Source: Negativicutes bacterium (lineage in GTDB: Bacteria; Bacillota_C; Negativicutes; Sporomusales_B; JARLHX01). Taken from it: 36,767 nt of DNA. The notes under the pieces were generated by a model, which saw only the letters and a list, made by a program, of their open reading frames with translations, was not told the origin of the DNA and searched no databases. The translations under genes and the position numbers were made by a program. The stretch spans positions 1-36,767 of the forward strand of contig JARLHY010000131.1 in NCBI GenBank assembly GCA_031292015.1. The letters run 5' to 3'. Each line of letters starts with the position of its first letter. The first letter of the stretch is position 1. This document shows positions 610-19,270 of this stretch, piece by piece.

Positions 610-1524
610 TTAATATTCTAAAATGCTTCGCCGCGCAAGTAAGCGGTTGGAGGAATTATATCGCGTTAACCATTGCTTAAAGGAGGCCTGCAAACTTTGG
701 AAGCGATCGGCAGTGGTTAGTGGTATAGTATCAAAACTGCTTTCCCCAATGTTTCTCTCGAACTTTTCAATGACGCCAAATTTGCGCCGGGTGGGCATCC
801 ACTGCAGACCGAGGCGGGAAAAGGTGGAGGTATTCTCCATGTCGTCAAATTCTTTGATATCGCCCGTACTTTGCGTTGAATGCATGACTGTCTGTAAATC
901 GTGGTTATTTGCCTGGTAGGCCGGGAAGATATTTTCATTCAGGAATCTTAATCCGGCGGCAAGGGTTCTCTCTTGATCCAACTGCGCAAAGACATAACGG
1001 GTGTATAGGTCGACAAACAGGTGGATATATACCCGGCCAAAGTCGCCGGTTCCGAGTTCAAACAGGCGTCCGCGTCCGAGCAGTAGCTTATATACAAGCA
1101 ATTCGCCCGGTTGCGAGGGGAGAAGGTCGCGGTCGCGGAACTCGGGTTTGGTTCTTTCGATATAACTGATCTGGCGATTGTTCAGCTTTAAACCACCGCT
1201 GGAAGACAGGCGAAAGAGGGTATTACAGATGGCCTCCCGGTCGTCAAGGCCACATTCTTTTTTTAGGCGATGGATATCCTCCAGGGTTATTTGGAGTCCG
1301 CGTTTTTGGAAGTGATTTAACAGGAAGAAGTTGTTCCAGTAAGGATTATGAAGACAAATAGCCGCCAACTGGCGATGTAAAGGCGTTATCACCGCCGGTG
1401 AAAGCGCTGCTGAGATTTCTTTCTGCTCGGCCGGTGACAGAGGTGTATTTTCCAGTAAGATGAGGCGCAGCCCGCTCAAAGGCTGACCGGCATCGGCCAG
1501 GGCTGTGGAGTTTGGGAGAACCAT
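610..1524 (-). CDS. rve/DDE-type integrase-like (transposase) protein
   Basis: A 304-aa protein read from ATG at 1524, chosen because AGGAGG lies 9 nt upstream; a longer TTG start at 1545 would overlap that ribosome site. The middle contains GDFGRVYIHLFVDLYTRYVFAQL, resembling the first-Asp strand region of rve (retroviral-type) integrase folds, and the C-terminal part ends in RYNSSNRLLARRSILEY, similar to the tail of IS3/IS481-type transposases. The second-Asp and third-Glu regions (HSTQSTGDIKEF, VIEKFERNIGE) are poorly conserved, so it may be degenerate or domesticated. I see no clear terminal inverted repeats or target duplication. Its role in the locus is unknown. Confidence 0.6.
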   Translation of the reverse strand: MVLPNSTALADAGQPLSGLRLILLENTPLSPAEQKEISAALSPAVITPLHRQLAAICLHNPYWNNFFLLNHFQKRGLQITLEDIHRLKKECGLDDREAICNTLFRLSSSGGLKLNNRQISYIERTKPEFRDRDLLPSQPGELLVYKLLLGRGRLFELGTGDFGRVYIHLFVDLYTRYVFAQLDQERTLAAGLRFLNENIFPAYQANNHDLQTVMHSTQSTGDIKEFDDMENTSTFSRLGLQWMPTRRKFGVIEKFERNIGESSFDTIPLTTADRFQSLQASFKQWLTRYNSSNRLLARRSILEY

Positions 1525-1550
1525 ACGATATCGCCTCCTTGGCAAAATTA

Positions 1551-6316: not shown

Positions 6317-7759
<1,443 letters not shown>

Positions 7760-7804
7760 CCGGATAGTGGTTTAAACAAAAATATCGAGAACTCAACAGG
7801 GATT

Positions 7805-7855
7805 TTATCATGATTCTGCCAGTTCCTGATTGGGGTTCTGGCAGAATCATGATAA
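7805..7855 (+). terminator. Perfect 18-bp intercistronic hairpin after anfK
   Basis: Arms 7805-7822 and 7838-7855 are perfectly complementary with a 15-nt loop. There is no T-run, and the next gene's ribosome site begins right after it, so it is more likely a 3'-end stabiliser or processing site that raises structural-gene mRNA over the distal genes than a full terminator. Confidence 0.65.
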
Positions 7856-7868
7856 GAAGAGGGTCGCT

Positions 7869-8321
7869 ATGAATGAAATGGATATCGACAAGTTCGAAGC
7901 CTTTGAAGAGAATTACCGCAGTGCCAAGATGTATCATTTTCGGGCGAAGCAGTTCCTGGATGAAGGCCAGCACTTCAGCGTGGTATTTAATGTTGCCTCA
8001 GTCGCGCTGGAGAACTACCTTATTGCCTTGTGCTGGTTATACAAAGTTGAGCCGGGAAACCACAATTATACCTGCCTTATGGATTCGCTGGAGGAGGGTG
8101 TTCAGATTTCCCCGGCGTTAAACAGGGAAATACGATCAATGGATTCGATATTTGGCATCTGTTCTTTGGACAATTATTACCACGGTATGCCGGAACAGAC
8201 CGATATGAACCTGGTGCTTGCAATCTGCAACGCGGTACAGAAACTATTCGATCCGGCCAAGATTTCAGCTATCAGGTCCGATATTGAAAAGTATAAAGAC
8301 GCGTTTGCCTCAAAGGACTGA
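7869..8321 (+). CDS. Small HEPN-like protein in the anf operon
   Basis: A 150-aa protein from ATG 7869 (AAGAGGG 6 nt upstream; an ORF start at 7830 would begin inside the hairpin). The arrangement AKMYHFRAKQFLDEGQHFSVVFNVASVALENYLIALCWLY with a later GNHNYTCLMDSL resembles HEPN all-alpha domains, where a first helix pair carries small residues and AxE, and a HNL-like turn follows. I do not see a clear RX4-6H RNase motif. Small conserved proteins (AnfO, AnfR) accompany anfHDGK elsewhere; this could be a functional counterpart, but I cannot equate it with either. Its position between anfK and nifB suggests a role in assembly or regulation of Fe-nitrogenase. Confidence 0.6.
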   Translation: MNEMDIDKFEAFEENYRSAKMYHFRAKQFLDEGQHFSVVFNVASVALENYLIALCWLYKVEPGNHNYTCLMDSLEEGVQISPALNREIRSMDSIFGICSLDNYYHGMPEQTDMNLVLAICNAVQKLFDPAKISAIRSDIEKYKDAFASKD

Positions 8322-13201: not shown

Positions 13202-14140
13202 TCAGACTTCAGCGATGATTTCTCCCATTTTGGAGACATCGTATCCGCCTATCCCGGCGATTTCTTTGCGGAAATCAGCTGACCGCAAAATGGACAAAAG
13301 AACCTGAAAATCAGGCTTGTCCGCGTCGTGACGCAGCATGATGAGATCAAGGCGTTCCTTTTGCAGCGGAATAAATTCCACTTTTTGCACCTGCATGGCG
13401 GCTTTTTCAATACCGATGCCGACATCGGCCTCGCCTCGGGCCACGCAGCTGGCTACAGCCAGATGGCTCATTTCTTCTTTGGCATAACCGGTTATGGAAG
13501 AAAAATCTATATCAAGTTTTCGCAGCATCTCATCCAGCAGAACTCTGGCTCCGGCGCCCCGCTCGCGATTGACGAACCGGATATCCGGCCGGGTCAGATC
13601 AGGCCAACCGGTGATGTTTTTGGGATTGCCGGGTGTCACATAAAAGCCTTCGTTGCGATACACCAAATTGACGAGCAGCGCCCGGTGGCCAGGGAGGTAC
13701 CTGCGCACATAAGGCACGTTGTATTCGCCGCTGTCGCCGTCCCAAAGGTGGGCGGTGGCAATATTGACAGACCGGTTGTATAGAGCGATCAAACCGCCGA
13801 TGCTGCCGACATAGCGTCTCAAGACCCGGCCGCCGCGCAGCCTTGGTTCAAGATGGCTGGACAGTATGTCCAGCACCATGTCCTGGCCGCAAATGATAAG
13901 TTCGGACGAATCACCGGGACGGCGTTCGCCAGCTGCCGCGGGCAGAGCAGGCAGCTGCACGGATTCGCCCCGCTTTGTCGACAATATATATCTTTCCAAA
14001 TCTACAGCTTCTATCCGCATGCTGCGGCCGATCCGGTGAGCAGGCAAATCGCCCCGTTTGATCAGCTCATAGACGGTAAACCGGGAAATCTTAAGTGCTT
14101 TGGCTACTTCTTCGGGAGTGTGCAAAGTGCTGTCAGCCAT
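13202..14140 (-). CDS. HTH regulator with molybdate-binding-type PBP domain
   Basis: A 312-aa one-component regulator. Residues 3-53 (STLHTPEEVAKALKISRFTVYELIKRGDLPAHRIGRSMRIEAVDLERYI) form an excisionase-type winged HTH. From about residue 83 to the end is a periplasmic-binding-protein-like domain without signal peptide (SVNIATAHLWDGDSGEYNVPYVRRYLPG, FVNRERGAGARVLLDEML, DVGIGIEKAA). This HTH plus PBP combination belongs to the family annotated as molybdate-binding regulators, so it probably senses molybdate, tungstate or a related oxyanion in the cytoplasm. It is divergent from the 89-codon ORF and Cas12f-like gene and could control them, and perhaps the nearby Mo-independent nitrogenase; that link is inference. 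Confidence 0.88.
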   Translation of the reverse strand: MADSTLHTPEEVAKALKISRFTVYELIKRGDLPAHRIGRSMRIEAVDLERYILSTKRGESVQLPALPAAAGERRPGDSSELIICGQDMVLDILSSHLEPRLRGGRVLRRYVGSIGGLIALYNRSVNIATAHLWDGDSGEYNVPYVRRYLPGHRALLVNLVYRNEGFYVTPGNPKNITGWPDLTRPDIRFVNRERGAGARVLLDEMLRKLDIDFSSITGYAKEEMSHLAVASCVARGEADVGIGIEKAAMQVQKVEFIPLQKERLDLIMLRHDADKPDFQVLLSILRSADFRKEIAGIGGYDVSKMGEIIAEV

Positions 14141-14406: not shown

Positions 14407-14676
14407 GTGAAATGTGAGATTTTTTTGATGCAGGGTGAACCTGCGTTCAGTTTCAGGCTGCGTGATCTGCAAACAGAAGAGGATAAACAGGCGGTTTGCC
14501 GGATGATCGGCCAAATGCATTCTGCACATGGGGAAAACTTTATGCCTGACCATGAATGGCTTGCTGAAATTCTGGCGAGCTGTTCATTCAACCGGATTGG
14601 CTTCACTGTCCGGAAGGAAAAAGGCAAGATTAAAATGTTCGCCTTTATTGCCAATCGACCGCCTGGCACGAATTAG
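14407..14676 (+). CDS. Small hypothetical protein upstream of the Cas12f-like gene
   Basis: An 89-aa protein from GTG 14407, with TGAGGA about 8 nt upstream. I recognise no family. It has two hydrophobic strands (residues 1-8 and 66-83, FTVRKEKGKIKMFAFIAN) around a helical middle (LQTEEDKQAVCRMIGQMHSAHGENFMPDHEWLAEIL), giving a compact alpha/beta prediction with two Cys. It begins after a good promoter and lies 99 bp before the Cas12f-like start on the same strand, so it is probably co-transcribed. It could be an accessory factor of that protein, or a small nitrogenase-cluster protein left behind. No known Cas accessory motif is visible. Confidence 0.55.
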   Translation: MKCEIFLMQGEPAFSFRLRDLQTEEDKQAVCRMIGQMHSAHGENFMPDHEWLAEILASCSFNRIGFTVRKEKGKIKMFAFIANRPPGTN

Positions 14677-14775: not shown

Positions 14776-16197
14776 GTGCCGATCAAGGCACTGCGGATGC
14801 AGATAATAAAACCTTATAATGAACCGGATGATCCTGCTCCGGTGACTTGGGACACCCTTGGCCAGACCTTGCGCGATTTACGTTATGCCGCAAGCAAGAT
14901 GGCCAACTACGTCATTCAGCAAAACTATATGTGGGAGTTCTTCCGGCAGAAATATAAGGCTGAAAACGGTATTTATCCGCTTCAGGCTGAACATAGGGAC
15001 AGGCAATACTGTTATCCGGCATTGACCAAGATGTTCCCTGCTGCGGCTACTCAGTTGATCAACCAAATCGAACAACACGCCAAGAAGGTCTGGGGAGCCC
15101 GGAAAGCAGAAATCTTGAAGCTGCACCAGTCTGTTCCGTCATTCAAGTTGAACTTTCCGATCCTTGTACACAGGAAGTGTTATTCTATCCGTTGCCCGGA
15201 AGAACCAGCGTCAAACAAATTCATAATTCAGGCGAATCTTACATCCAAGGCCAGCGGGCGTACAAATTACTCCTTCCTGGTAGATGCCGGCGAAAGGTCA
15301 AAGCGAACTATCGTCGAGCGACTTATATCCGGGCAGTATCGTCAGGGTGCGCTGCAGATAGTTGCCGGACGGACCGGAAAATGGTTCTGCCTCATCCCTT
15401 ATGAATTCCATGTTGAAGTTGATGATAAACTTGACCCTAACCGGATCATGGGGGTTTGCTTTGGTGTGAGCAAGGCGGTGTATTGGGCATTTAGCGATTC
15501 ATGGAAGCGTGGTTGGATAGATGGTGGCGAGGTTGATGAATTCCGACGCAGGGTTCAGGCGAGATACAAAAGCATCAGGCAGCAGAACCAATGCCCTGGT
15601 GAAGGCCGTATTGGTCATGGCAGGAACAGGCGTCTTTTGCCCATCCTGGGTTTCCGGGAGAAGGAAGCAAACTTTCGGACCACCACGAATCATCGCTATG
15701 CGAAAAGGATCGTTGAAGAAGCTGTCAGAAATAAGTGTGGCGTCATCCAAATGGAAGATATTGCTGGCATCAATGAACAAGGCGTGTTCTTGAAAAACTG
15801 GACGTACTTCGACCTCCAGACTAAGATAAAGGATAAAGCGGCTGAAGCGGGAATCAAAATCCGGATCATTGACCAGCAATATATCTCGCGCCGTTGTAGC
15901 CAATGCGGATCCATAGACTCCTCCAAACTGCAGGATCAGGCGACTTTCGTCTGCAAAAGCTGCAACTTTGGCGAGTTGTATCGTTGTTTATCCTGTGGTA
16001 AGAGTCAACAAAAATCAGGACTCTGCGCTAACTGCAACGGCTCGACCAGGCATGTCCCGATAGTGTCCGATTACAATACTGCCAGGAATATAGCTGCTCC
16101 GGCGAGCGCAACTACCGTCGCTGAATCCTTGTTGGCAGAAAGCATTGTTTCCAAGACTAACAATGACAAGCCTAAGCGAACACCGAAAACTCAGTAG
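14776..16197 (+). CDS. cas12f: Nuclease-dead Cas12f (type V-F)-like protein
   Basis: A 473-aa protein with long collinear similarity (from memory) to compact Cas12f1 nucleases of about 420-500 aa. Examples are RIMG(V)xxGVxxAVYxAF at 223-239, GGEVDEFRRRVQARYKSIRQQ at 250-270, EKEANFRTTTNHRYAKRIVEEA at 295-316, and VIQMEDIAGI at 323-332. RuvC-II E327 and RuvC-III D432 (SDYNTARNIA) are intact. The RuvC-I Asp of the G-I-D-L-G motif is Cys228 (GVCFG; codon TGC at 15457-15459), so DNA cleavage should be lost. The C-terminal target-nucleic-acid zinc region has four CxxC pairs (374/377, 393/396, 404/407, 417/420) rather than two. Start GTG 14776 follows GAGGTG by 7 nt. TnpB is less likely given the Cas12f-type N-terminal REC region and guide-RNA layout. 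Predicted role: RNA-guided DNA binding without cutting. Confidence 0.85.
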   Translation: MPIKALRMQIIKPYNEPDDPAPVTWDTLGQTLRDLRYAASKMANYVIQQNYMWEFFRQKYKAENGIYPLQAEHRDRQYCYPALTKMFPAAATQLINQIEQHAKKVWGARKAEILKLHQSVPSFKLNFPILVHRKCYSIRCPEEPASNKFIIQANLTSKASGRTNYSFLVDAGERSKRTIVERLISGQYRQGALQIVAGRTGKWFCLIPYEFHVEVDDKLDPNRIMGVCFGVSKAVYWAFSDSWKRGWIDGGEVDEFRRRVQARYKSIRQQNQCPGEGRIGHGRNRRLLPILGFREKEANFRTTTNHRYAKRIVEEAVRNKCGVIQMEDIAGINEQGVFLKNWTYFDLQTKIKDKAAEAGIKIRIIDQQYISRRCSQCGSIDSSKLQDQATFVCKSCNFGELYRCLSCGKSQQKSGLCANCNGSTRHVPIVSDYNTARNIAAPASATTVAESLLAESIVSKTNNDKPKRTPKTQ

Positions 16198-16204
16198 GTT
16201 CGCA

Positions 16205-16445
16205 TTAATAACTTGGTAGGGCGACTTGGCGTCCTTAAAGCGAGAAGGTGTCCGGGTTCATGGACGGGCATACACTCGCTAACTTCCTGCTAAAGGAAGA
16301 CCTTCGTCGATATGACGGGCAATTTGTGGATACGTTTGCGGAAGCGATGCTCCGGCTTGGTAGCGGCATATGGTTTTGCTGCCGCCAGCCCCTCGCAACC
16401 TGCAAGTATGCGCAAATTGAAGCTCCAGGGTTATCTGGTTGACAG
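16205..16445 (+). ncRNA. Guide-RNA locus (tracrRNA plus repeat in one piece) of the Cas12f-like protein
   Basis: No protein is supported here, but hairpins follow one another: 16219-16223/16230-16234; 16239-16244/16275-16280 (AGCGAG/CTCGCT, enclosing GTGT/ACAC and more); 16283-16287/16295-16299; 16303-16308/16314-16319. This matches, from memory, the order of stems in Cas12f tracrRNA, including AGCGAGAAG resembling the CCGAGAAG segment. An anti-repeat (16320-16339) then pairs with 16402-16419 over about 17 bp, with a hairpin (16354-16390) closing the gap, as in an engineered single-guide RNA. The guide would begin near 16420-16426. Ends are not defined by sequence alone. A further stem, 16176-16181/16198-16203, spans the stop codon of the protein gene. 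Confidence 0.75.
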
Positions 16446-16488
16446 CGTGGATATCATGTTGCCGGCACATACACGCTACTTGAAGCTC
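16402..16488 (+). CRISPR. Two-copy degenerate repeat (vestigial mini-array)
   Basis: The segment that pairs with the anti-repeat (16402-16425) is repeated at 16465-16488: 18 of 24 positions match, with the last nine (TTGAAGCTC) identical. The interval between is 39 bp (16426-16464), a CRISPR-like period of 63 bp. Candidate guides are CAGGGTTATCTGGTTGACAG (16426-16445) and, after the second copy, TGTCTCAACAGAATGAAATT (16489-16508). The second copy pairs poorly with the anti-repeat, so it is probably decayed. No spacer has a convincing target in this window. Confidence 0.45.
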
Positions 16489-16743
16489 TGTCTCAACAGA
16501 ATGAAATTACGGTAATCGATGGATTTTCGGATAGCCAAAGAATACACAATAATCATTACGTCGGTCGCCTTGACCAAAGCGGAAACGTACGACCCAGGCC
16601 GCAATCGAAGTTCGCGCACTGCATCCATGGTTACGATAGCGGTGATTTCGCCTGACTCATATTCGATTACGACCTTGGCCATAATCTCCGCACTCTATTC
16701 TTTTTACCATCCCCGGGATCTTGTTTCTCCCGCTTATTTTCAT
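16476..16743 (-). pseudogene. Molbindin (Mop, TOBE-fold molybdate-binding) gene with a frameshift
   Basis: Reading from ATG 16743 (AGGAGGT 6-7 nt upstream) gives MKISGRNKIPGMVKRIECGD, then one extra base shifts the frame near 16683. From there MAKVVIEYESGEITAIVTMDAVRELRLRPGSYVSALVKATDVMI continues in the next frame. Together these are a normal molbindin, a roughly 70-aa protein that oligomerises to store molybdate. After ATDVMI the frame runs on for about 23 residues beyond the usual end, into the guide-RNA repeat region. It is convergent with the Cas12f-like gene. A sequencing error could cause the shift, but the odd C-terminus suggests real decay. Mo storage would relate to the Mo-independent nitrogenase and Mo-type regulator nearby. 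Confidence 0.75.
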
Positions 16744-16758
16744 GCTGATAACCTCCTG

Positions 16759-16785
16759 CATAACCGGTTAATACATTGTATGTAA
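16759..16785. promoter_or_regulatory. Palindromes in the molbindin promoter
   Basis: On the plus strand, TAACCGGTTA (about 16760-16769) is a perfect palindrome, and TACATTGTATGTA next to it is another inverted repeat (TACAT/ATGTA). They lie 15-45 bp upstream of the molbindin start, where an operator is expected, and share CCGGTTAAT with the promoter of the molybdate-type regulator. Confidence 0.35.
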
Positions 16786-16873
16786 ACAGATTTGCCTATG
16801 CCCCTGCTTGGGTGGAGGGACTCAGGCCATAGTACGTAAGGGAGCCGGTATAAATATTTTCGGAGCAACAATA

Positions 16874-16907
16874 AAAAAACCTCGGCGGCATGGCTGCCAA
16901 GGTTTTT
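16874..16907. terminator. Bidirectional hairpin terminator
   Basis: A-run, imperfect 8-9 bp GC stem (CCTcGGC / GCCaAGG) and T-run (GGTTTTTTG). It separates the molbindin/Cas12f block from the following hypothetical gene and makes an upstream start for that gene unlikely. Confidence 0.75.
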
Positions 16908-17033
16908 TGTCAGAAGATTTTTCATAAAACAGGAATTTCTGCCATTTTGCCGAAAACAAACACTAAGCTGGCATTGACGGATGATTGGGAATCGGGCCGG
17001 GGGAGAACCTTTTGGAAAAGAGGTGCGGAAAAA

Positions 17034-17309
17034 GTGATTGCCCAGAAGTTTGCCCTGATCATTGTCGACCCTCACGGGAAGGAATTGGGCACAGAAGATG
17101 TTCGCAGCTGGTTGGATGAAGCGACAGGCAAGGTCGCGCCGGACCGGGAAGTAGTTATTGACACTTTCGGCGATTACAGCTATGGGCGGATCTTTAAGGG
17201 AACCGTCGCATTACGGGACGCGAAAGAGATCAGTGCAGCCGAGCTGCGCCGATGTCTCGAAATCGAAGCAGACCTGAAGTTCCAGTTTCACGACATCCAA
17301 AAGCTATAA
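17034..17309 (+). CDS. Hypothetical protein, 91 aa
   Basis: The frame is open further upstream, but through a terminator; GTG 17034 has GAGGTG 8 nt before it and is the best start. The product (MIAQKFALIIVDPHGKELGTEDVRSWLDEATGKVAPDREVV..., ending FQFHDIQKL) has alternating hydrophobic strands and an acidic helix (EISAAELRRCLEIEADLKF). I do not recognise the family. It is followed directly by a strong terminator, so it is a single-gene unit. No link to its neighbours can be shown. Confidence 0.6.
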   Translation: MIAQKFALIIVDPHGKELGTEDVRSWLDEATGKVAPDREVVIDTFGDYSYGRIFKGTVALRDAKEISAAELRRCLEIEADLKFQFHDIQKL

Positions 17310-17311
17310 CC

Positions 17312-17346
17312 TTAAATCCCCCGGTCGTAGCCGGGGGATTTTTCTG
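17312..17346 (+). terminator. Rho-independent terminator
   Basis: AATCCCCCGG pairs with CCGGGGGATT around a TCGTAG loop and a T-run follows, right after the 91-aa gene. Confidence 0.85.
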
Positions 17347-17377
17347 TAATGGTCCGTCAGGCCGCGGATCTCTATGT

Positions 17378-17572
17378 TTATTTCTTGCGGGACTTGAAAG
17401 CAAGCACCATGTACCACGCCAGCAGGAAGGCAGCGATGACCGCCAGCCAGAGCCCGGTGGCCGAAGACAGGTGAGTGCCGAAGGTCTGGTCGATAACGTC
17501 GATGGTGCTGCCGATGATAACTACTGCCACCATGGCGATGATGAGATTGACCGCAAGGGGAAATTTACGCAT
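17378..17572 (-). CDS. Small membrane protein, two transmembrane helices
   Basis: A 64-aa protein: MRKFPLAVNLIIAMVAVVIIGSTIDVI is a first membrane segment (about residues 7-27) and TGLWLAVIAAFLLAWYMVLAF a second (about 39-59), with a basic tail SRKK. No family recognised. It lies downstream of, and on the same strand as, the amidohydrolase gene, with about 100 bp between. The product is short but hydropathy and codon use look genuine. Confidence 0.6.
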   Translation of the reverse strand: MRKFPLAVNLIIAMVAVVIIGSTIDVIDQTFGTHLSSATGLWLAVIAAFLLAWYMVLAFKSRKK

Positions 17573-17671
17573 GAAAAAGTCCTTTCCGCATCTTCGGATG
17601 CCGCCAGTCAGGCGAGAATCAACACTCGGCGGTGAAACCTTATTCTAACCAGCTAATTAAACGCGGTGTTA

Positions 17672-19270
17672 TCAATGCTCCTGATAGACGATCTTACCGC
17701 CGCAGACGGTGTGCGATACCCGGGTCCGGGCGATCTCCGCGGCCGGTATGCTGAAGATATCCTCGGACAGAATCACCAGGTCAGCCAGATAGCCGGGAGC
17801 GAGGATGCCTTTCGCGGTTTCGGCGAATTCGGCGTAAGCGCTGGTTGCGGTATAAGCTCTCACCGCTTCGGCGACGCTGATCTTTTGTTCAGGATGCCAG
17901 CCGCCGGGATGTTCGCCGCCAAGAGTCTGACGGGTCACAGCCGCCTGGATGCCAAGCAGGGGAGCCAGCGGGGCTACCGGCCAGTCGGTGCCGAAGGTGA
18001 GCGCTGTTCCGGCGTCCAGCAGGGAGCGGAAAGGGTAGGCCATTTTGGCCCGGGCCGGACCGAGCCGGCGATCGGCCCAGCGGCCGTCGTCGGCGGCGTG
18101 GTAAGGCTGGGCGGAAGCGATAACGCCCATCGCCGCCATGCGGCGAATATCCTCCAGGGTTAGATGCTGGGCGTGCTCAATCCGGAAACGCCGGTCCCGG
18201 TCGCCGTTTGCCGCTGCTGCCTTGGCGAACATATCCAGGAGAAGGCGGTTGGCGGCGTCGCCGATGGCGTGAATCGAAGCCTGGAGCCCCGCCGCGTCGG
18301 CGGCGGCGATCATTTCAGCCAGCTCCTCAGGCGGCTGCAGAAAAAGGCCTCGCATCTCCGGAGCGTCGCAGTATGGCTCAAGAAAAAGGGCGGTAGTTGA
18401 GCCCAGCGAACCGTCGACGAAGCCTTTGACTCCGCCGAGGCGCAGCCAGGCATCGCCGCGAAATCCGTTCGCCAGCAACTCCTGCTGGCGCTGCCACTGA
18501 GCGATGGGGGTCCGGGCGTATATCCGCGCCGTCAGTTGACTACGGCGATGACAGGCCTGAAAGGTCTGCCAGTCTTCCCAGGCGGTAACGTCCTGAACCG
18601 AAGTGACGCCGAGGGAAGCGGCGTGAGCGAGGGCATTGGCCAGCGCGGCGGCATTGTCTTCGTCGCTGGGCTTCGGTTGGACGCGCAAAACAAGATCCGT
18701 GGCCGTATCCTTCAGGATGCCGGTAGGTTCGCCGTCGGGGCCCCGGACGATCTGTCCGCCGGCCGGGTCGGGCGTGCTGCCGTCGATGCCCGCCAGGGCA
18801 AGCGCCTGGCTGTTGGCCAGTCCCATATGCAGATCGAGCCTGGTGACGAAAACAGGTGTGTGTGATGTGAACGGATCGATGAGATCCTTGGTGGGCAGCC
18901 GCTTTTCCGGCCACTGCTCATGGTCCCAGTTGCCGCCGGTAAGCCAGCGGCCGTTCGCTAAAGACGCGGCCCTTTCGGCGATAAGGCCGGTAAATTCTTC
19001 GGCGGTGTTGGCTGGCCGGAGATCGACAGCCAGCAGCTGTCTGGCTCCCAGCATGAAGTGGGTATGATTGTCGATAAAACCAGGCAGCGTAAGTGCTCCG
19101 CCCGCGTCCAGGATCAGGGTGCCTTTGCCTGTGAGGGCGGTGATTTCGTTGTTGGTACCTACAGCGACGATTTGTTCGCCGCAGACGGCGATGGCTTCGG
19201 CCCGGACCGGTGAACCTGTAAAAACACTGGCGTTGACCACAGCCAGACTGATTTTTTGCATGATTGACAT
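17672..19270 (-). CDS. YtcJ-type amidohydrolase
   Basis: A 532-aa metal-dependent hydrolase of the amidohydrolase superfamily (COG1574/YtcJ type). Metal-ligand motif PGFIDNHTHFMLG lies near residue 65. VDLRPANTAEEFTGLIAERA, HAIGDAANRLLLDMFAKA (metal His), RIEHAQHLTLEDIRRMAAMGVIASAQPYHAADD and TFGTDWPVAPLAPLLGIQAAVTR (metal Asp) follow in the usual order. Substrates of this family are mostly unknown amides or imidazole-type compounds. Start: ATG 19270 or 19261; GGAGGT at 19273-19278 is 2 nt from the first and 11 nt from the second. Stand-alone gene, with no signal peptide. Confidence 0.9.
   Translation of the reverse strand: MSIMQKISLAVVNASVFTGSPVRAEAIAVCGEQIVAVGTNNEITALTGKGTLILDAGGALTLPGFIDNHTHFMLGARQLLAVDLRPANTAEEFTGLIAERAASLANGRWLTGGNWDHEQWPEKRLPTKDLIDPFTSHTPVFVTRLDLHMGLANSQALALAGIDGSTPDPAGGQIVRGPDGEPTGILKDTATDLVLRVQPKPSDEDNAAALANALAHAASLGVTSVQDVTAWEDWQTFQACHRRSQLTARIYARTPIAQWQRQQELLANGFRGDAWLRLGGVKGFVDGSLGSTTALFLEPYCDAPEMRGLFLQPPEELAEMIAAADAAGLQASIHAIGDAANRLLLDMFAKAAAANGDRDRRFRIEHAQHLTLEDIRRMAAMGVIASAQPYHAADDGRWADRRLGPARAKMAYPFRSLLDAGTALTFGTDWPVAPLAPLLGIQAAVTRQTLGGEHPGGWHPEQKISVAEAVRAYTATSAYAEFAETAKGILAPGYLADLVILSEDIFSIPAAEIARTRVSHTVCGGKIVYQEH

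Follow-up and report, generated by a model that had tools for sequence, protein, structure and literature searches.

A Cas12f1-like protein with cysteine in place of the RuvC-I aspartate, encoded beside a predicted matching scaffold and a one-spacer array

Can a CRISPR effector lose the residue with which it cuts and still keep its guide? The locus described here raises this question. The window, a stretch of 36,767 nucleotides of DNA from a Negativicutes bacterium, carries a gene for a Cas12f1-like protein in which the RuvC-I Asp is replaced by Cys, and downstream of the gene come a predicted tracrRNA-like scaffold and, between two repeats, a single spacer (Table 1). Dead TnpB proteins that act as regulators (TldR) are already known, as reported in the available part of PMC13418256, and a literature search, outside which lay most subscription papers and many preprints, found no paper on a comparable dead Cas12f1. 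What is new is that a dead Cas12f1 sits next to a scaffold and a one-spacer array that are kept and matched, that Asp228 has been lost repeatedly among relatives and that a second substitution, T370I, marks this loss.

The reading frame of the cas12f1-like gene is intact, with a GTG start, 473 codons and a single stop, in agreement with the original prediction of an otherwise undamaged gene. The protein is a full-length homologue of Cas12f1, with sequence and fold homology along its whole length as had been claimed, and in alignments residue 228 (TGC, 15457-15459) falls on the Asp in the GVDLG motif of SpCas12f1 (9i8y, E 1.1e-89) and in the GIDLG motif of AsCas12f (8j12). The acidic residues Glu327 (GAA, 15754-15756) and Asp432 (GAT, 16069-16071) are kept, and the codons of the two further residues that depart from the family pattern, Ile370 and Thr435, lie at 15883-15885 and 16078-16080. 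Another Asp might in principle fill the RuvC-I position, but no adjacent one able to do so was seen in the GVCFG motif of the window protein. The RuvC triad is therefore Cys-Glu-Asp and not the Asp-Glu-Asp of Cas12f1, and we accordingly class the protein as a Cas12f1 homologue rather than as a Cas12f nuclease. In Un1Cas12f1, three acidic residues make up the active site and losing an Arg in the Nuc domain stops cleavage (PMC8053092, in the part available).

Table 1. Positions of the features described, in the window unless another locus is named
Feature	Position	Strand	Basis or remark
cas12f1-like gene	14776..16197	+	473 aa; RuvC-I Asp replaced by Cys228; Ile370 and Thr435 also off the family pattern
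Predicted tracrRNA-like scaffold	16216..16341	+	Identity to L130, near-identity to L003, folds
30-nt scaffold core	16218-16247	+	Identical to L130 core
Anti-repeat within scaffold	16320-16341	+	Computed pairing with repeat 1
Repeat 1, CRISPR-type	16392..16423	+	25/32 identical to L130 consensus repeat; pairs with anti-repeat
Single spacer (guide), 34 nt	16424..16457	+	Between the two repeats; ends inferred from repeats
Repeat 2, degenerate	16458..16486	+	Left end uncertain
Distant dead Cas12f	L150 (G002, Succiniclasticum ruminis) 6906-8159 and 16359-17630		
Distant dead Cas12f	L151 6623-7912		
Distant dead Cas12f	L152 6296-7576		
Distant dead Cas12f	L153 363-1616		
Distant dead Cas12f	Viral contig L105 3965-5245		
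Leader RNA	L152 6110-6298; L105 3850-4000; L012 4290-4450; L114 upstream of gene		

Replacement of Asp by Cys takes two base changes. An orthologue sharing the substitution was sought and found in P0002, a second metagenomic allele (a cluster of two member sequences, from five contigs) that has Cys228 as well and, past the start, differs from the window protein at four residues, which makes a sequencing error at this position unlikely. After P0002, the next closest protein among the matches listed is 72% identical and carries Asp228; a scan of genome contigs with the single window protein gave no match. We aligned 209 of 212 homologues, leaving out three under 340 aa. Among these listed matches, 203 carry D at column 228, three carry C, and Y, A and V occur once each, in a sample skewed to dead proteins by its three search seeds (the window protein, P0025 and P0032), all of which lack Asp228. 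The Cys occurs in the window protein, P0002 and P0122, the Y in P0025, the A in P0032 and the V in P0189. Column 327 is E in all 209 listed homologues and column 432 is D in 207 of them; P0128 has Asp228 but Gly in place of D432. The alignment thus upholds the earlier placement of Cys228 at the RuvC-I Asp with E327 and D432 retained.

At column 370, four residues ahead of the first zinc-ribbon Cys, 204 of the same 209 listed homologues have Thr and the other five have Ile. Among them, T370I is found in five of the six proteins without Asp228 and in none of the 203 with it (Fisher 1.9e-9, with relatedness ignored). On a 69-protein tree, four changes are needed to account for the six that lack Asp228, one each for the window pair, for P0025 with P0122, for P0032 and for P0189; Asp228 has been lost at least four times. 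T370I accompanies three of these four losses, P0189 retaining Thr, and A435T is present in the window pair and in P0025. We read both substitutions as remodelling of a RuvC site that would no longer hold metal, and T370I offers a sequence test for dead Cas12f homologues and points to a position in that site worth studying. The dead relatives P0025 and P0122 are 56% identical to each other and both have full-length ORFs, which indicates that a dead Cas12f can last.

The two parts of the window protein have changed unevenly. It has altered 20 of the 163 columns that are invariant in 13 close relatives with Asp228, and each of these relatives, left out in turn, shows 1 to 11 changes at invariant columns. 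Changes at conserved columns number 2/72 up to residue 227 versus 18/91 after it (p 0.0012), and the 13 active relatives pooled show 29/957 before residue 228 and 30/1213 after. With a wider set of 30 active proteins the counts are 0/20 versus 10/60 (p 0.059) and significance is lost. One of the 20 changes, at position 397, is private to the window allele, and position 92 differs between the two alleles. With the tree fixed, the branch leading to the Cys228 pair measures 0.211 in the N-terminal part (8-227) and 0.358 in the RuvC part (228-398), a ratio of 1.70; the median ratio of the 38 active end branches with an N-terminal length over 0.08 is 0.65 and their maximum 1.36. Among dead relatives the ratio is 1.99 in P0025, 1.14 in P0122, 1.12 in the stem of these two and 0.92 in P0032, which is also dead and shows no RuvC acceleration. 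The branch ratios and the lopsided changes suggest that in the window lineage the nuclease half has been relaxed, with the RNA- and PAM-reading half evolving at an ordinary rate. The claim that conserved motifs persist around the REC, RuvC and zinc regions therefore needs dividing: the N-terminal part is conserved, but the RuvC and zinc part is accelerated and other conserved residues in it are altered.

Downstream of the gene, a predicted tracrRNA-like scaffold with a matching repeat is present. The scaffold block starts 20 bases past the stop codon, and neither it nor the one-spacer array appeared in the original prediction. The core recurs in L130, a 61-62% identical relative that has a GIDLG motif and an array and looks active, again downstream of cas12f; with a 2-base difference it also lies upstream of cas12f in L003. 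On the plus strand of the window, the next best 32-mer to the L130 consensus repeat after repeat 1 matches at 18/32. The duplex of the anti-repeat with repeat 1 is computed at −23.0 kcal/mol, a value that none of 2000 base-shuffled repeats reached. Paired with the four L130 repeats, the window anti-repeat gives −13.4 to −19.2 kcal/mol, and the L130 anti-repeat gives −16.3 (degenerate first repeat) to −27.5 kcal/mol with its own repeats and −18.0 kcal/mol with the window repeat. Computed pairing between scaffold and repeat is stronger within the window locus than across loci, and one pair of the duplex is A-U in L130 and G-C in the window. Part of this matching could predate the loss of activity. 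Repeat 2 pairs with the anti-repeat at −8.6 kcal/mol, which 79.8% of shuffles equal and which is no better than chance, leaving one working repeat and one spacer.

The scaffold alone folds modestly better than shuffles (z −1.87, 9/200 as good; −3.19 in L130 and −3.88 in L003), and scaffold and array together give z −2.76 and a fold that resembles that of L130. An Rfam search gave no match at the gathering threshold, and scans for promoters and terminators found no more than in shuffles. A longer array was considered and rejected, as the best 20 of 47 repeat families contain no regular array-like family of three or more copies. A second spacer was rejected as well, the sequence after repeat 2 reading on the other strand as a TOBE-domain ORF. 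Judged from sequence, the guide looks to have been kept and nuclease activity to have been lost.

We propose that the window protein binds DNA under the direction of a single fixed guide RNA and would block or tune transcription without cutting, a reading in which we place about even confidence. A guide RNA would be made from scaffold, repeat 1 and spacer and bound by the Cas12f1-like protein; the complex would open DNA at one site, the RuvC site with Cys228 would not cut, and the complex would stay bound at its target, obstructing or regulating transcription. Arguing for this are the near-invariance of Asp228 among the matches listed and the identity of the triad as the active site of Cas12f, the better match of repeat 1 to its own anti-repeat than to that of L130, the fast change of the RuvC part beside an N-terminal part at ordinary rate, the reduction of the array to one spacer and one working repeat, as a fixed guide would need, and the persistence of the dead pair P0025 and P0122. 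The suggestion that guide and DNA binding were retained without cutting gains strength from the scaffold with its matching repeat and from the uneven rates; binding without cutting is itself what we infer. Against it stand the lost significance in the wider set, P0032 with its unaccelerated RuvC part, the modest z of the scaffold, the absence of a close orthologue in which a kept partner gene could show (the next protein is 72% identical and has Asp) and the outcome of the target searches, in which no target was found in phages, plasmids, viral contigs, 380 genomes or the window.

The decayed second repeat also fits a dying array, and the locus might be in slow decay, its nuclease lost, its array shrunk to one spacer and its stop codons not yet gathered. 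The single spacer, the conserved residues changed in the RuvC and zinc region and the sighting of this dead version only as two near-identical alleles are all compatible with such a course. Decay should nevertheless affect both halves of the protein, contrary to the uneven counts given above, and the ORF is intact and the scaffold and repeat 1 still matched, so that we regard decay as somewhat unlikely. Immunity by binding, in which one spacer silences a mobile element through nuclease-free interference as in Cas12m, seems to us more doubtful still. Cas12m (type V-M) has a non-canonical RuvC triad and acts by binding, and Cas12m2 protects via strong DNA binding (PMC10442227, available part); its triad is His-Asp-Asp and its length 596 aa, compared with Cys-Glu-Asp and 473 aa in the window protein. 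The window locus retains a CRISPR-type repeat and scaffold as such a system would, but only a single spacer, and this gave nothing convincing among phages (two records, best E 4), plasmids (five records, best E 1) or viral contigs (no 20-mer and five 17-mer stretches); among the 380 genomes, three had a match at up to two mismatches versus one control match. A weak match in the window at 1280 (14/15), within an ORF with a weak IS481-like hit below the cut-off, might point to a mobile target, but is equalled by 27 of 1500 random 15-mers. We rejected it and a match at 18152 as targets, both reading T-L-E-D-I codons on the other strand. Finally, Cys228 together with Glu327, Asp432 and the adjacent Arg might still hold metal and support slow nicking or cutting. 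Glu327, Asp432 and Arg373 are indeed kept, but this seems highly improbable given Asp in 203 of the 209 listed homologues, the alteration of more residues near the site (T370I, A435T) and the loss of dsDNA cleavage that accompanies the changed triad of Cas12m2 (same source, available part).

If the window protein is an RNA-guided binder of this kind, a CRISPR effector would have changed from cutter to gene switch with its original scaffold and repeat kept, and the locus would be an intermediate between defence and regulation. A natural DNA-binding protein this small, with a single native guide, would also be a start for compact DNA-binding tools. More tentatively, it is possible, though in our estimate short of an even chance, that CRISPR-Cas12f1 loci with a tracrRNA repeatedly became fixed-guide gene regulators by the same path, with loss of Asp228 and gain of T370I, an array reduced to a single guide, a nuclease half drifting freely and an RNA-reading half still under selection; the window would hold one such regulator, its guide still matched to its scaffold.

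Among known systems, the protein resembles type V-F Cas12f1 (SpCas12f1 9i8y, AsCas12f1 7wju/8j12) in its full-length homology and zinc-ribbon C-terminus and differs in having Cys for the RuvC-I Asp. A Cas12f1 locus in Syntrophomonas palmitatica (L005) has, downstream of its gene, a scaffold and repeat built on the same plan, but 36 repeats were counted there, versus one spacer in the window; of 398 genomes from its phylum, three had a match. Type V-F loci have a multi-spacer array, whereas the window has one spacer with one good and one degenerate repeat. A natural dead Cas12f reportedly acts with a sigma factor, and no sigma factor was present among the flanking ORFs scanned (13202-14140, 14407-14676, 16476-16682 and 16890-17309). 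The dead Cas12f structures 9n9c and 9n9m, which we take to be of a natural protein, share the Cas12f fold and, according to their PDB titles, an inactive nuclease, but are about 20% identical in structure alignment, are 365 aa long and lack the C-terminal part. In TldR, RuvC was inactivated several times independently, and guide and DNA binding seem to have been retained (PMC13418256, available part); the RuvC site of the window protein is likewise predicted to be inactive. TldR proteins derive from transposon TnpB, whereas the nearest relatives of the window protein in the 69-protein tree are CRISPR-type and Cas12f1-like, with tracrRNA-like scaffolds; L130 and L003 of its group carry scaffold and array. 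TldR also has a conserved non-transposon partner gene, and none was seen at the window locus, for which no close orthologue with readable DNA was found; the anf loci of relatives (L137-L141) are without cas12f.

The region upstream of the cas12f1-like gene holds an anf cluster and, on the minus strand, a divergent gene (13202-14140) whose product has HTH_17 and PBP_like domains. The original prediction had remarked on a dead Cas12f beside Fe-only nitrogenase genes, and a tie between them is unsupported: the anf genes are kept in relatives, and tblastn found no cas12f downstream of anf in five of them (L137-L141, 9 kb or more each; L142 and L143, too short downstream of anf, were left out of the count). 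Around the cas12f relatives L130 (12 kb) and L131 (11 kb), tblastn likewise found no anf gene. Proteins of the class searched reach 86% identity to AnfD over its length, and a match at 1e-100 was present in 24 of 380 genomes, so the host probably belongs to this class; we take it to be the Negativicutes, from Phascolarctobacterium, the source of L003. The product of 13202-14140, which lies between the anf cluster and cas12f, is perhaps a molybdate-type sensor, and this gene was not found near anf in the neighbourhoods fetched for relatives. The TOBE-domain ORF (16476-16682, minus strand, 4.3e-08) overlaps the far end of repeat 2; by eye, its first part is apparently in another frame (16657-16761) and it may be frameshifted. 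Both flanks of the cas12f1-like gene may be molybdenum-related. An 89-aa ORF just upstream of cas12f (14407-14676, plus strand) has no Pfam or NCBIfam match. The ORF at 610-1545 (minus strand), with its weak IS481 hit below the cut-off, has a relative of 54% identity next to anf in L143, so it may be native to the neighbourhood rather than a recent insertion.

A distant clade of full-length Cas12f proteins in rumen-type bacteria, 27-31% identical to the window protein, lacks the RuvC-I Asp at all six of its places, with Ala at five and Val in L105, and its Glu327 is mostly Asp; L026 was also scored as non-D at the RuvC-I position, although this seems to reflect an alignment edge. At five of the six places there is a resolvase-type gene nearby (one by Pfam, four by blastp), which in L151 consists of two overlapping ORFs, and the contig of L153 is short. 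Just downstream at four places (three by Pfam, L151 by blastp) is a gene for a large trimeric autotransporter adhesin. This arrangement resembles the TldR-flagellin pairing, and by that analogy the distant dead Cas12f likely serves RNA-guided control of the surface adhesin. In four of six aligned stretches (the other two, L113 and L115, cover the wrong gene end), a conserved leader RNA with a core like that of the Cas12f scaffold (GGGGAGAAGG ... CTCACTAAAAGCTCAGGCAGAACCGTAAGTCCTGAC) runs up to the start codon of these distant dead Cas12f genes.
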